From: Arthrobacter sp. NicSoilB8
GTDB lineage: Bacteria; Actinomycetota; Actinomycetes; Actinomycetales; Micrococcaceae
Assembly: GCF_019977355.1 (NCBI RefSeq)
Contig: NZ_AP024655.1
Span: forward strand, 992,001-1,056,000
DNA length: 64,000 nucleotides
Reading direction: 5' to 3'
In this document: in pieces, positions 10,548 through 60,856 of the stretch
Layout: each line of letters opens with the position of its first letter
Numbering within the stretch: the first letter of the stretch is position 1
Translations under genes and position numbers: made by a program
Notes under the pieces: generated by a model
Seen by the model: only the letters and a program-made list of their open reading frames with translations
Database searches by the model: none
What the model was told of the DNA's origin: nothing

Positions 10548-10650
10548 GGTGCCCCCGTCGTTGCTGCGCTCTGTTAGTTGACCGCTGAGGAGCCGGGTCC
10601 GGCCCTCCGTTGTTCAAGCTATCAAAGCCCTCTGACAATCAAGCACTAGC

Positions 10651-52551: not shown

Positions 52552-53409
52552 TCAACTGATCTCGACGGCTTCACCGCTGACGACAATCCCGCCGGACGGA
52601 GGAATGTCGATGGTGAGCACACTCGGGCGGCCGACATGGCTGCCTTGGTGCACCAGCACGCGGCTTGGCGGCTCCACAAGTGAAAGCAAGCGGAGGTATC
52701 CGCCGAAGGCAGCGGCAGCCGAACCGGTGGCCGGATCTTCTGTGATGGTGCCCACCGGGAAGAGGTTGCGCGAGTCGAACTCACCCGGCCCGATCTCGTA
52801 GAGAGTCGTGACGGTGCCGGTCCAGTTCTGGTCATCCATCAGCGTGCGCATGGGATCAGGGTCGAAAACGAAGGAGTCAAAGGCCTTTCGTCCCGCGAAG
52901 ACAAGAATGGGGTGCCAGTTTCCGGCAAAAGCGATCATCGGAGGGTAATCAGGGTTCAGGTCGCCCAGGCCCATGCCGAGCAACCCGAGCAGGGTGCTCA
53001 GAACATCGTCGGGGAACTCGGACACTCGGGGCTCGACGCTCGTGAAGCTTGCCGTCACCTCCGCGCCCTGGCCTGCAGTCTCGATCGCGACGGGCCCCAC
53101 CGGGGTGTCGAAGATAAAGGTCCCCGTACCGTCACGACCCGACAGCGCGACGGCCAAAGCAATCGTGGCATGGCCGCAAAACGGCACCTCGGCGATCGGG
53201 GAGAAGTACCGAACGCGGTTTCGGCGGGAGTCTCCATCAACCCTCACCTCCGTGACAAACATCGTTTCCGCATAGCCGATGTCGGCCGCGATGGCCTGCA
53301 TCCTGGCGTCGTCGAGTCGGGTTGCGTCCAGGACTACTCCGGCCGGGTTTCCGCCGTCGGGTGTGGTGGTAAAGGCGGCATAGCGCAGTATCTCCGTGGT
53401 CTGTTCCAT
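52552..53409 (-). CDS. PhzF-family isomerase-like protein
   Basis: 285 residues with the PhzF/diaminopimelate-epimerase-like fold: YAAFTTTPDGGNPAGVVLDA, GYAETMFVTE (the conserved Glu), YFSPIAEVPFCGHATIALA and TEDPATGSAAAAFGGYL. No phenazine genes are nearby, so it is one of the many PhzF homologues of unknown substrate. It begins 39 bp after the sigma factor gene ends, on the same strand, and may be its operon partner. Confidence 0.87.
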   Translation of the reverse strand: MEQTTEILRYAAFTTTPDGGNPAGVVLDATRLDDARMQAIAADIGYAETMFVTEVRVDGDSRRNRVRYFSPIAEVPFCGHATIALAVALSGRDGTGTFIFDTPVGPVAIETAGQGAEVTASFTSVEPRVSEFPDDVLSTLLGLLGMGLGDLNPDYPPMIAFAGNWHPILVFAGRKAFDSFVFDPDPMRTLMDDQNWTGTVTTLYEIGPGEFDSRNLFPVGTITEDPATGSAAAAFGGYLRLLSLVEPPSRVLVHQGSHVGRPSVLTIDIPPSGGIVVSGEAVEIS

Positions 53410-53448
53410 TCCGACATCGTCGCACAGCGGCCCAGATGGCGGAGGCCG

Positions 53449-54525
53449 TCAAAGGCCCACCCGCGCACGGACGGATGGGCCCTCGCCATCAAACTGATAC
53501 TGCCGCAGGACGTTGGACCGGGACGGGTCCTTGAGCTTTTCCAGCGCCGCGAGCTCTATCCGGCGGATGCGTTCGCGGGTCATGCCGTAGGTTTCCGCTA
53601 CCGCGTCCAGGGTTTGCGCTCCGCCGCCTCCGAGGCCGAAACGCAGTGAAATGACCCGTGCCTCCCGGTCTTCGAGCGTGTCGAGTACTTCCAGTAGCTG
53701 CGCCTTCAGCTGGTGATGGAAAAGCGTTTCAGTTACGTCTGGGCCGGAGGAATCCAACAATTGTTCGGCCAGGGCTTCGGTTCCGCCCTGGCCGTCGGGC
53801 ACCTCAGAATCCAAAGAATAGACCGGCTTATCCAGGCTCAGCAGGCACTCCACCTTCCCGATCGAATATTTGGTCAGGCGGCGAAGATCCTCGTTGGTGC
53901 ACAGGGTACCCGTCATAGCGGAAGTCCGTTGTGCTGACCTCACTGTCTGCAGTTGCTCGATGACCTTCGCCGGCAGCCGGATCAGACGGGACTGATCAGC
54001 CAGCGCCCGGAGGATGCCGCCGCGGATGAGCAACGTCGCGTGCGTGGAGAATCTGAAACCCTTGGTGAAGTCGAACTTGCGGACAGCCCTATGGAGTCCA
54101 AGGTTTCCCTCCTGGATCAGGTCCTCAAAGTCGAGGCCCCGGTGCGTGTAGTGCTTGGCGATCGACACTACTAGCCGGAGGTTGGCGTGGAGCAGCGCGT
54201 CAGCGGCACGCTTGCCCAGCAGGACGATGGTCCGAAGCTCGTCTGCGTCCTGACCGGCCCGCGAAGTACCGTCCGCCAGGAGCTGCTCCGCGAAAAGCCC
54301 GGCCTCGATTTCCTGCGCCAATTCCACTTCCTGCTCGGCAGTGAGCAAGTCGTAATGCCTCAGCCGGCGCAGATAGTCCCCGACGGCGTCGACAGTGACG
54401 CCGCCGCTTGCCGCCAACAGTTCCGGCCAGGGAGAGCCATCAGGCTCGAATGATTCAAGGACCGAGCCAACTTCTGAGGGCGAGGAAGGCGTCGGGTCGC
54501 TCGCCTCGTGGAACGGATCAGCCAT
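53449..54525 (-). CDS. RpoD-family (group 2) sigma factor with altered -10 recognition region
   Basis: 358 residues. Region 1.2-2.1 is present (VGDYLRRLRHYDLLTAEQEVELA; NLRLVVSIAKHYTHRGLDFEDLIQEGNLGL). Region 2.3/2.4 reads FSTHATLLIRGGI at 159-171, against the usual FSTYATWWIRQAI. It thus loses the Tyr and both Trp that melt the -10 element and the Gln that reads -12 (E. coli Y430, W433, W434, Q437). Region 4.2 (TLDAVAETYGMTRERIRRIE, about 305-325) is close to consensus for TTGACA. Hence promoter choice should be normal at -35 and unusual at -10. Followed by phzF, divergent from a SnoaL-like gene. Confidence 0.9.
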   Translation of the reverse strand: MADPFHEASDPTPSSPSEVGSVLESFEPDGSPWPELLAASGGVTVDAVGDYLRRLRHYDLLTAEQEVELAQEIEAGLFAEQLLADGTSRAGQDADELRTIVLLGKRAADALLHANLRLVVSIAKHYTHRGLDFEDLIQEGNLGLHRAVRKFDFTKGFRFSTHATLLIRGGILRALADQSRLIRLPAKVIEQLQTVRSAQRTSAMTGTLCTNEDLRRLTKYSIGKVECLLSLDKPVYSLDSEVPDGQGGTEALAEQLLDSSGPDVTETLFHHQLKAQLLEVLDTLEDREARVISLRFGLGGGGAQTLDAVAETYGMTRERIRRIELAALEKLKDPSRSNVLRQYQFDGEGPSVRARVGL

Positions 54526-54555
54526 GTCATCCCCTGTCCGGCGGTTCAGGCTCGT

Positions 54556-54584
54556 GAAGGCAGACTACGTGGCCGGTGTGACAA
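54556..54584 (-). promoter_or_regulatory. Possible autoregulatory promoter of the sigma gene
   Basis: Reading leftward: TTGTCA (54584-54579), then with a 16-bp spacer TGCCTTC. This resembles the TTGACA and TACCTTC of the two SnoaL-gene promoters. Start codon lies about 30 bp beyond. Weak: one -35 mismatch and a shorter spacer. Confidence 0.35.
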
Positions 54585-54630
54585 AAACCGGCGGCCTGGG
54601 CAGACGGTGAAAGGCGGTAATCGCGGCATC

Positions 54631-54685
54631 TTGACACTCTCCAACCGCCGGAATACCTTCGGCCTTAACGGGCATTTCACCCGTT
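54631..54685 (+). promoter_or_regulatory. Promoter element A with leader hairpin (SnoaL gene 1)
   Basis: TTGACA at 54631, 17-bp spacer, TACCTT at 54654, then CGGCCTTAACG and a hairpin AACGGG/CCCGTT (54667-54672, 54680-54685). The same ordered set occurs at 60801 before the paralogous gene, the spacer being unlike. No TATAAT-like box is present at this spacing. Confidence 0.75.
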
Positions 54686-54698
54686 CCCAACAAATTTC

Positions 54699-54749
54699 AG
54701 CGCCCAGCTTTTGGGCGCTTCTGCCGGGCGCCCATGGACAGCGCCCGGC
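54699..54749 (+). promoter_or_regulatory. Two leader hairpins with interchangeable arms
   Basis: AGCGCCCA pairs with TGGGCGCT (54699-54719, five-base loop), then GCCGGGCGC pairs with GCGCCCGGC (54723-54749, nine-base loop). Because all four arms share GCGCCC or GGGCGC, arm 1 could also pair with arm 3, and arm 2 with arm 4, an attenuator-like arrangement 41 nt before the start codon. Confidence 0.55.
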
Positions 54750-54789
54750 GGACAGTTACAGCGGTCTCTTGCACCTGAAGGAGCCCACC

Positions 54790-55200
54790 ATGTCCAGCAT
54801 GTTGATCAACCGCTTCTACTCGGAGGTTCTCGCGGGCGGCAATTTCGCCCTGGTCGATGAAATGGTCACGGACGACTTCATCGACCACGAACTGGCGCTC
54901 CCCGGACAGCCGCCCGGCAAAGAGGGCGCCCGGTTCTTCGCGCACACCATCCGAACCGCGTTTCCTGACATCTCGGTCAAAGAAGCCCAGCCGACACTGT
55001 CCGACGGGGATCTTGAAGCCGCCCATGTCGTGATGACCGGCACGCACCAGGGCGAGCTGATGGGCATTCCGGCGTCGGGCAAGACTGTCGAATTCGGCGG
55101 CACCGACATCATCCGCGTCCAGGACGGCAAGATCGCCGAGCATTGGGGAAGCACGGACACCATGAGCCTGATGCAGCAGATCGGTGCCCTGCCGGAATAA
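54790..55200 (+). CDS. SnoaL-like ester cyclase-family protein 1
   Basis: 136 residues; AAGGAG lies upstream of the ATG. NTF2-like fold: LINRFYSEVLAGGNFALVDEMVTDDFIDHE, then LPGQPPGKEGARFF and GKTVEFGGTDIIRVQDGKIAEHWG. This is the SnoaL/ester cyclase family pattern, with the aspartate in the DFIDHE position. In polyketide makers such proteins close rings; in soil bacteria most are of unknown role. Transcribed divergently from the sigma factor and from the shared TTGACA/TACCTT element. Sister gene at 61018. The stop is inside the 17-bp repeat. Confidence 0.88.
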   Translation: MSSMLINRFYSEVLAGGNFALVDEMVTDDFIDHELALPGQPPGKEGARFFAHTIRTAFPDISVKEAQPTLSDGDLEAAHVVMTGTHQGELMGIPASGKTVEFGGTDIIRVQDGKIAEHWGSTDTMSLMQQIGALPE

Positions 55201-60800: not shown

Positions 60801-60856
60801 TTGACAGGCTCGGGACCCGGGAATATCTTCGGCCTTAACGAGGCGTCTCGCCCGTT
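60801..60856 (+). promoter_or_regulatory. Promoter element B with leader hairpin (SnoaL gene 2)
   Basis: TTGACA at 60801, 17-bp spacer, TATCTT at 60824, then CGGCCTTAACG. The following hairpin pairs AACG(A)GGCG with CGCCCGTT (60837-60856). The stem bases differ from those of element A but pairing is kept, and TTCC follows in both. The start codon is 217 bp downstream of the TTGACA, so the leader is about 190 nt. Confidence 0.75.

Follow-up and report, generated by a model that had tools for sequence, protein, structure and literature searches.

A short sigma70-like protein of Arthrobacter with eroded promoter-reading residues and apparent descent from an XPB-like helicase/sigma70 fusion

Introduction

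Can a sigma factor gene be maintained after its product has lost the residues with which promoters are read? The question is raised by a gene of Arthrobacter sp. NicSoilB8, located in a 64,000-nucleotide stretch of contig NZ_AP024655.1 which was analysed as a whole and is referred to here as the window. Promoter reading defines sigma factors; a maintained sigma without it, if this is such a case, would show that the polymerase-binding half is selectable alone. According to PMC4496690 and PMC2613000, strands are separated with the help of Y425, Y430, W433 and W434 (E. coli numbers), Q437 and T440 act at -12 and H455 and E458 at -14, R584 and E585 act in the -35 element and R436, R441 and R451 in duplex binding; R588 was likewise taken as a contact from these accounts. 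An earlier note, based on the DNA of the window, had described a group 2 sigma factor in which directed change, not decay, was expected to have created a need for a different -10, and perhaps for help with melting, alongside normal -35 binding.

Results

The window protein and its altered residues

The window protein (Table 1) matched sigma70 regions 1.2, 2 and 4, all above the Pfam cut-offs, so that this feature of group 2 sigma70 factors is present. In a search of solved structures the top match was HrdB (E 1.1e-73), with SigA also among the best, and the sole other match in the window's own genome at E 0.001 was a SigA-like gene (46% identity) with a normal motif. The gene is flanked by a PhzF-like and a SnoaL-like gene, and further out lies an MFS gene.

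Table 1. Features of the short sigma70-like gene and related elements (window positions)
Feature	Position	Strand	Basis
Short sigma70-like protein, 358 aa, ATG start, intact ORF	53449..54525	-	Open reading frame and Pfam
Region 1.2 (aa 46-79)	54289..54390	-	Pfam PF00140
Region 2 (aa 111-180)	53986..54195	-	Pfam PF04542
Region 4 (aa 280-332)	53530..53688	-	Pfam PF04545
Altered region 2.3/2.4, FSTHATLLIRGGIL (aa 159-172)	54010..54051	-	Alignment
-35 recognition helix, MTRERIRRIELAA (aa 315-327), Q589R and K593A	53545..53583	-	Alignment
Conserved leader with AGGGG ribosome-binding-like site (54531-54535)	54526..54561	-	Alignment of 12 short and 3 fusion upstream regions
RecA-NDp/PafBC-like promoter element, TTGTCACAC-N8-TAGTCT, ATG 59 nt downstream	54562..54584	-	Sequence match
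RecA-NDp-like element, TTGTCAGAG-N8-TAGCTT, upstream of TM0106-family RecB-like nuclease	10616..10638	-	Pattern match

E. coli numbering was transferred from HrdB on the assumption of a gap-free correspondence anchored at W433. In the alignment FSTHATLLIRGGIL replaces FSTYATWWIRQAIT of SigA/HrdB, which bears out the changes Y430H, W433L, W434L and Q437G read in the earlier note and adds T440L, which it did not mention. The flanking motifs that it reported as intact (LIQEGN, RAVRKFDFTKGF and TRERIR) are present, but further contact residues differ: H455 is replaced by Lys, Q589 by Arg, K593 by Ala and, in region 2.2, L402, presumably a core residue, by Glu. Q589, K593 and the remaining listed contacts are taken by us to be DNA contacts. 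Within the -35 helix R584, E585, R586 and R588 are kept, Q589 and K593 are replaced, and the helix is eroding across the clade of short copies described below.

Relatives and descent of the short form

Family members at 1e-80 or better were found in 32 of 206 genomes of the genus Arthrobacter. They comprise 13 short copies and 20 fusions, with both forms present in genome G010, where the short form (L071) and the fusion (L074) lie approximately 39 kb apart. In the three fusions scanned with Pfam, ResIII, DEAD and Helicase_C domains are followed by sigma regions 1.2, 2 and 4; measured from stop to stop, unbroken frames of the Arthrobacter fusions span 844-895 aa, and the sigma halves of the Arthrobacter fusions are 49-65% identical to the window protein. 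The best solved-structure matches to the helicase half of one fusion were archaeal XPB helicases, and no such N-terminal helicase is found in the 358 residues of the window protein. A class-wide sample of 394 genomes gave three matches at 1e-115, namely the window's genome (short form), one member of the genus and one member of another family in the order, and other genera of the family contributed at least six fusions (L094-L099) among the matches listed from 345 genomes. Two of these, from another genus (L098 and L099), have lost W433 and kept W434 (FSTYAYNWIWQA and FSTYAHAWIRQA), so that the melting motif has been altered a second time, separately. Another (L096, genome G449) combines a very SigA-like sigma half with an extra C-terminal tail which, in our view, resembles a NusG/KOW domain. 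A literature search on sigma/XPB or sigma/helicase fusions found no paper describing the fusion or the short form, and published passages on Kineococcus present the XPB helicase as a separate protein; the XPB-like helicase/sigma70 fusion is apparently undescribed so far.

In a tree of the sigma halves (40 rows, motif columns removed, the sequence F_L093 excluded) the 13 short copies form one clade (support 100/99, starred). This clade groups with five sister fusions (92/90, not starred) and, together with these, with the other Arthrobacter fusions (99/98, starred). The short genes and the three sister fusions that were aligned have a MADxI start in common, and an upstream block of approximately 60 bp is common to all 13 short and the five sister fusion genes, beyond which the upstream DNA diverges. 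All 13 short copies retain a discernible promoter-like block, and the ribosome site is present in all 12 that were aligned; two of the 13 frames are broken (L072 and L073). The short form is thus nested in the fusion clade, and its sequence marks it as a descendant of an XPB-like helicase/sigma fusion. The simplest reading would be a single in-frame loss of the helicase, with partner genes lost later. Downstream of one short copy (L064), both large helicase-nuclease genes known from the fusion clusters persist; within the 20 kb examined a second (L067) retains one such gene and a third (L068) a pair of small genes from the clusters.

The possibility that a separate helicase of this kind works in trans was considered and rejected. 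When the helicase half of a fusion (467 aa) was searched for at E 1e-20, 12 of the 13 genomes that carry a short copy, including that of the window (G000), gave no match; the sole exception was the genome with both forms, in which the match sits in its own fusion.

Fate of the promoter-reading residues

W434 is lost in all 13 short copies (replaced by H, C, F or L), of which the two with broken frames were read as pieces, and is present in all 26 fusion rows; the substitutions are therefore not a sequencing accident. W433, Y430 and Q437 are retained in five, four and three of the 13, respectively. The replacing residues vary from copy to copy, as position 430 holds H, Y, F or L, position 433 L, W, G, F or D, position 434 H, C, F or L, and position 437 G, Q, S, N or R. 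The normal FSTYATWW motif, which the earlier note had named as one half of what would speak against its reading, was found in the fusion homologues (24 of 26 rows).

Changes were counted by parsimony on the amino-acid tree, using 11 of the 13 short copies (broken L072 and L073 left out) and 17 of the 20 Arthrobacter fusions (without L090, broken; L092, long branch; L093, contig end); L089 was retained although its frame is broken ahead of the sigma half, and the six fusions from other genera were left out. The same sets were used for the omega estimates below. On trees of equal length (2.49 for short copies vs 2.47 for fusions), 26 changes at -35 contacts were counted in the short copies and three in the fusions. 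At -10 contacts the figures were 24 and 10, position 425 accounting for seven of the latter, and at region 3.0 contacts six and zero, compared with 37 and 38 for region 3.0 as a whole. Region 4.2 underwent 62 changes in the 11 short copies and 18 in the 17 fusions, which renders the normal -35 binding proposed earlier doubtful. Also more variable in the short clade (short/fusion) were regions 2.2 (19/11), 2.3 (20/12), 2.4 (22/14) and 4.1 (32/25), whereas regions 2.1 (19/35), 3.1 (63/88) and 3.2 (20/37) and the tail (18/36) were less variable.

Among positions invariant in the fusions, nine of 11 base readers are changed in the short clade, compared with one of seven on our core list (384, 387, 402, 403, 406, 407, 409 and 413, all taken to be core-facing; Fisher P = 0.013 for base readers against core positions). 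Region 4.2 has 15 of 20 such positions changed, region 3.2 none of eight. On the wider list of DNA contacts the proportion changed (16 of 25) was not clearly higher than elsewhere (32 of 72; P = 0.07).

Fourfold sites on the short tree show 1.93 changes each, so that approximately four amino-acid changes per codon are expected without selection (using 2.2 nonsynonymous sites per codon). Nine of the 11 base readers show three to six changes, R584 and R588 showing none, and most of the -10, extended -10 and -35 base-reading positions thus evolve at about the neutral rate in the short clade. D403, Q406, E407 and N409 have not changed at all in the 11 short copies, compared with approximately 17 changes expected if neutral. 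Since R436, R451, R584 and R588 are likewise fixed, and R441 is present in 10 of the 11, some DNA binding may remain.

Selection on the short clade

Codon models gave an omega of 0.259 for the 11 intact short copies compared with 0.073 for the fusions (tree length rescaled per codon set). At 196 codons outside the DNA-contact list the short copies were fitted far better with omega free than with omega at 1 (lnL -3502.0 vs -3624.8). This purifying selection indicates that the short gene is not in plain decay, and the protein beyond the lost promoter readers looks to be still under selective protection. For DNA-contact codons omega was 0.295 in short copies and 0.019 in fusions, and for the remaining codons 0.253 and 0.085. 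Region 2.1 had an omega of 0.09 in short copies; in the core-facing region 2.2 constraint has also eased (0.176 vs 0.017 in fusions). The value for the five -10 readers (0.31) was not clearly different from 1 (lnL -146.1 vs -147.8). Pairwise dN/dS was 0.30-0.55 in five short pairs and 0.12-0.16 in three fusion pairs.

Near-neutral readers, four unchanged core residues (403, 406, 407 and 409), a fixed region 3.2 and an omega of 0.26 together speak against plain decay and equally against a conserved new -10 specificity. Of the directed change claimed in the earlier note, the denial of plain decay holds; the direction is not supported, as the replacing residues vary among orthologues at a near-neutral rate. 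For the same reason the proposed new -10 specificity finds no support: the alignment of orthologues, which the note had put forward as one of its checks, revealed no conserved replacements at 430, 433, 434 or 437 across the 13 copies.

A promoter element of the DNA-damage type

The RecA-NDp/PafBC consensus is given as tTGTCRgtg-8nt-TannnT (PMC5656591). The window element agrees with it in TTGTCR, in spacing and in TAnnnT, and differs in gtg. The pattern [GT]TGTCR-N11-TANNNT was found upstream of 12 of 13 short copies and at 18 of 20 Arthrobacter fusion loci, the exceptions being L068 (short), in which the first base differs, L092, which has none, and L093, truncated by a contig end; at L089, with its broken frame, the element lies 498 nt ahead of the called start. 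The full TTGTCRGTG is present at seven fusion loci (L082-L084 and L086-L089), and no match was found within 700 nt upstream of the six fusions from other genera. The short and the Arthrobacter fusion genes thus have what looks to be a RecA-NDp/PafBC-like promoter element in common.

TTGTCR-N11-TANNNT occurs at 16 sites in the window's genome, the same number as in the reversed control. Four of the 15 other sites lie at most 100 nt upstream of DNA-damage genes, namely those for a UmuD-like protein, radA, recA and a TM0106-family RecB-like nuclease, and the remainder precede other genes, among them a NUDIX hydrolase, or no identified gene. PafBC is tied to RecA-NDp and is naturally fused in Arthrobacter aurescens, as stated in PMC6789036; the window's genome contains a single frame of 685 aa in which two WYL domains are found, as expected of such a fused PafBC.

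A conventional promoter scan of 53380-54850 found none; it requires TATAAT-like boxes and is blind to a site such as that at 54631. There and at 60801, two SnoaL-like genes (54631-54670 and 60801-60840) have TTGACA-N13-GGAATAYCTTCGGCCTTAACG in common, the core being TTGACA-N17-TAYCTT. As a candidate target of the window protein this promoter was rejected: the extended motif, TTGACA-N13-GGAATAYCTTC-N-GCCTTAACG, occurs with up to three mismatches in 52 of 204 genomes of the genus, 43 of them without a short copy. It is present in nine of 13 genomes with a short copy and 43 of 191 others; in six of the nine (G000, G014, G081, G117, G129 and G150) a site is found no more than 300 bp from the short gene.

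Gene neighbourhood of the fusions

Clustering of genes at the 20 Arthrobacter fusion loci, in which names were taken from one Pfam-scanned representative per cluster, identified a NERD-UvrD gene at 17 and a complete pair of PD-(D/E)XK and UvrD-nuclease genes at 16. ADP-ribosylglycohydrolase-phosphatase (13 loci), ARPP-1 (10), NrtR-NUDIX (nine) and DUF6308 (five) also recur. The complete helicase-nuclease pair is missing at 12 of the 13 short loci. Among PADLOC models, the helicase half comes closest to PbeA, the sigma half to MzaA and the UvrD parts to GajB, and NERD-UvrD models span almost all of the NERD gene. In gene content the fusion cluster resembles a repair or defence cluster. Clusters at L074-L093 bring together NERD-UvrD and AddAB-like helicase-nuclease genes and a RecA-NDp-like element.

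Discussion

With most promoter readers free to change and several polymerase-facing parts held, the pattern fits selection for something other than promoter choice. We propose that the ancestor was an XPB-like helicase fused to a group-2-like sigma and bearing a DNA-damage-type promoter, and that an internal deletion which preserved the frame would have removed the helicase, once, in a lineage of Arthrobacter. The sigma part left behind would have retained the promoter element, the sigma regions and the RNA polymerase-facing residues, while selection would have let go of most -10, extended -10 and -35 readers and of the residues that flip -11A. Its product would most likely be made after DNA damage through PafBC, would bind either the core RNA polymerase or, irrespective of sequence, a polymerase on DNA, and would compete with SigA or keep polymerase from ordinary initiation. 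That the protein is promoter-blind, still maintained and a damage-induced ligand of core polymerase in competition with SigA is put forward with slightly less than even confidence. The narrower proposal, that it is a brake or clamp on polymerase, born when the XPB-sigma fusion shed its helicase, is offered more tentatively. Descent, residue loss, purifying selection and the common promoter-like element are legible in the sequences compared, and from these we infer damage induction, core binding and competition with SigA.

The erosion could instead belong to a working sigma of changed or very loose specificity, in which each species has its own promoters or recognition comes from an activator, the part that PafBC plays with the housekeeping holoenzyme. 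The retained arginines (R436, R451, R584 and R588), the fixation of all eight fusion-fixed region 3.2 positions and the purifying selection on the gene would suit such a factor, but its replacements vary by species at near-neutral rates, even at the melting Trp positions, erosion also extends to the -35 helix and the extended -10 residues, and the 54631/60801 motif is frequent in genomes that lack a short copy; we consider it unlikely. A similarly low probability is given to a relic in slow decay, a jobless sigma part which, its helicase and partners gone, wears away at its DNA contacts first. The raised pairwise dN/dS, the two broken frames and the helicase-nuclease pair, absent from 12 of 13 short loci and present at 16 of 20 fusion loci, are what such a relic would leave, yet omega is well below 1, four core residues are unchanged where many changes would be expected, and the promoter-like block and ribosome site persist. 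The combination of lost DNA reading and kept sigma regions is also predicted for a decoy of a non-polymerase partner, for example an anti-sigma factor, much as PhyR titrates NepR by means of its sigma-like domain. This appears the least probable of the readings weighed here, as Pfam finds no receiver domain in the protein and no anti-sigma factor among the four scanned window neighbours (SnoaL-like twice, PhzF-like and MFS).

If the protein is a maintained, promoter-blind ligand of polymerase, the 13 species that carry it would constitute a natural separation-of-function series. The XPB-sigma fusion would be a one-chain analogue of the TFIIH motor together with an initiation factor. That it carries, in Arthrobacter, the DNA-damage promoter of actinobacteria hints at a direct coupling in bacteria of an XPB-type DNA motor with transcription initiation or repair.

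Several known systems invite comparison. With HrdB/SigA and group 2 sigma70 factors the window protein has regions 1.2, 2 and 4 in common, in an alignment that runs through region 3; it differs in the replaced -10 reading and melting residues (Y430, W433, W434, Q437 and T440) and in having approximately 45 aa ahead of region 1.2, with the region 1.1 model not matched. From the Arthrobacter XPB-like helicase/sigma70 fusions, with whose sister members it has the start segment and promoter block in common, it differs in having neither a helicase half nor the residues that read promoters. The model of MzaA, from the MZA anti-phage system, also describes a longer protein that has sigma70 as its C-terminal domain; membership was rejected, the window protein scoring 257.9 bits against a cut-off of 800 for the NCBIfam MzaA model, with the match limited to the sigma part. 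PhyR combines a receiver domain with an ECF-like domain. In alphaproteobacteria, as its mimicry of sigma factors is described, the sigma-like domain functions without promoter reading, a likeness to what is proposed for the window protein, whose Pfam matches comprise sigma70 domains only and no receiver domain.
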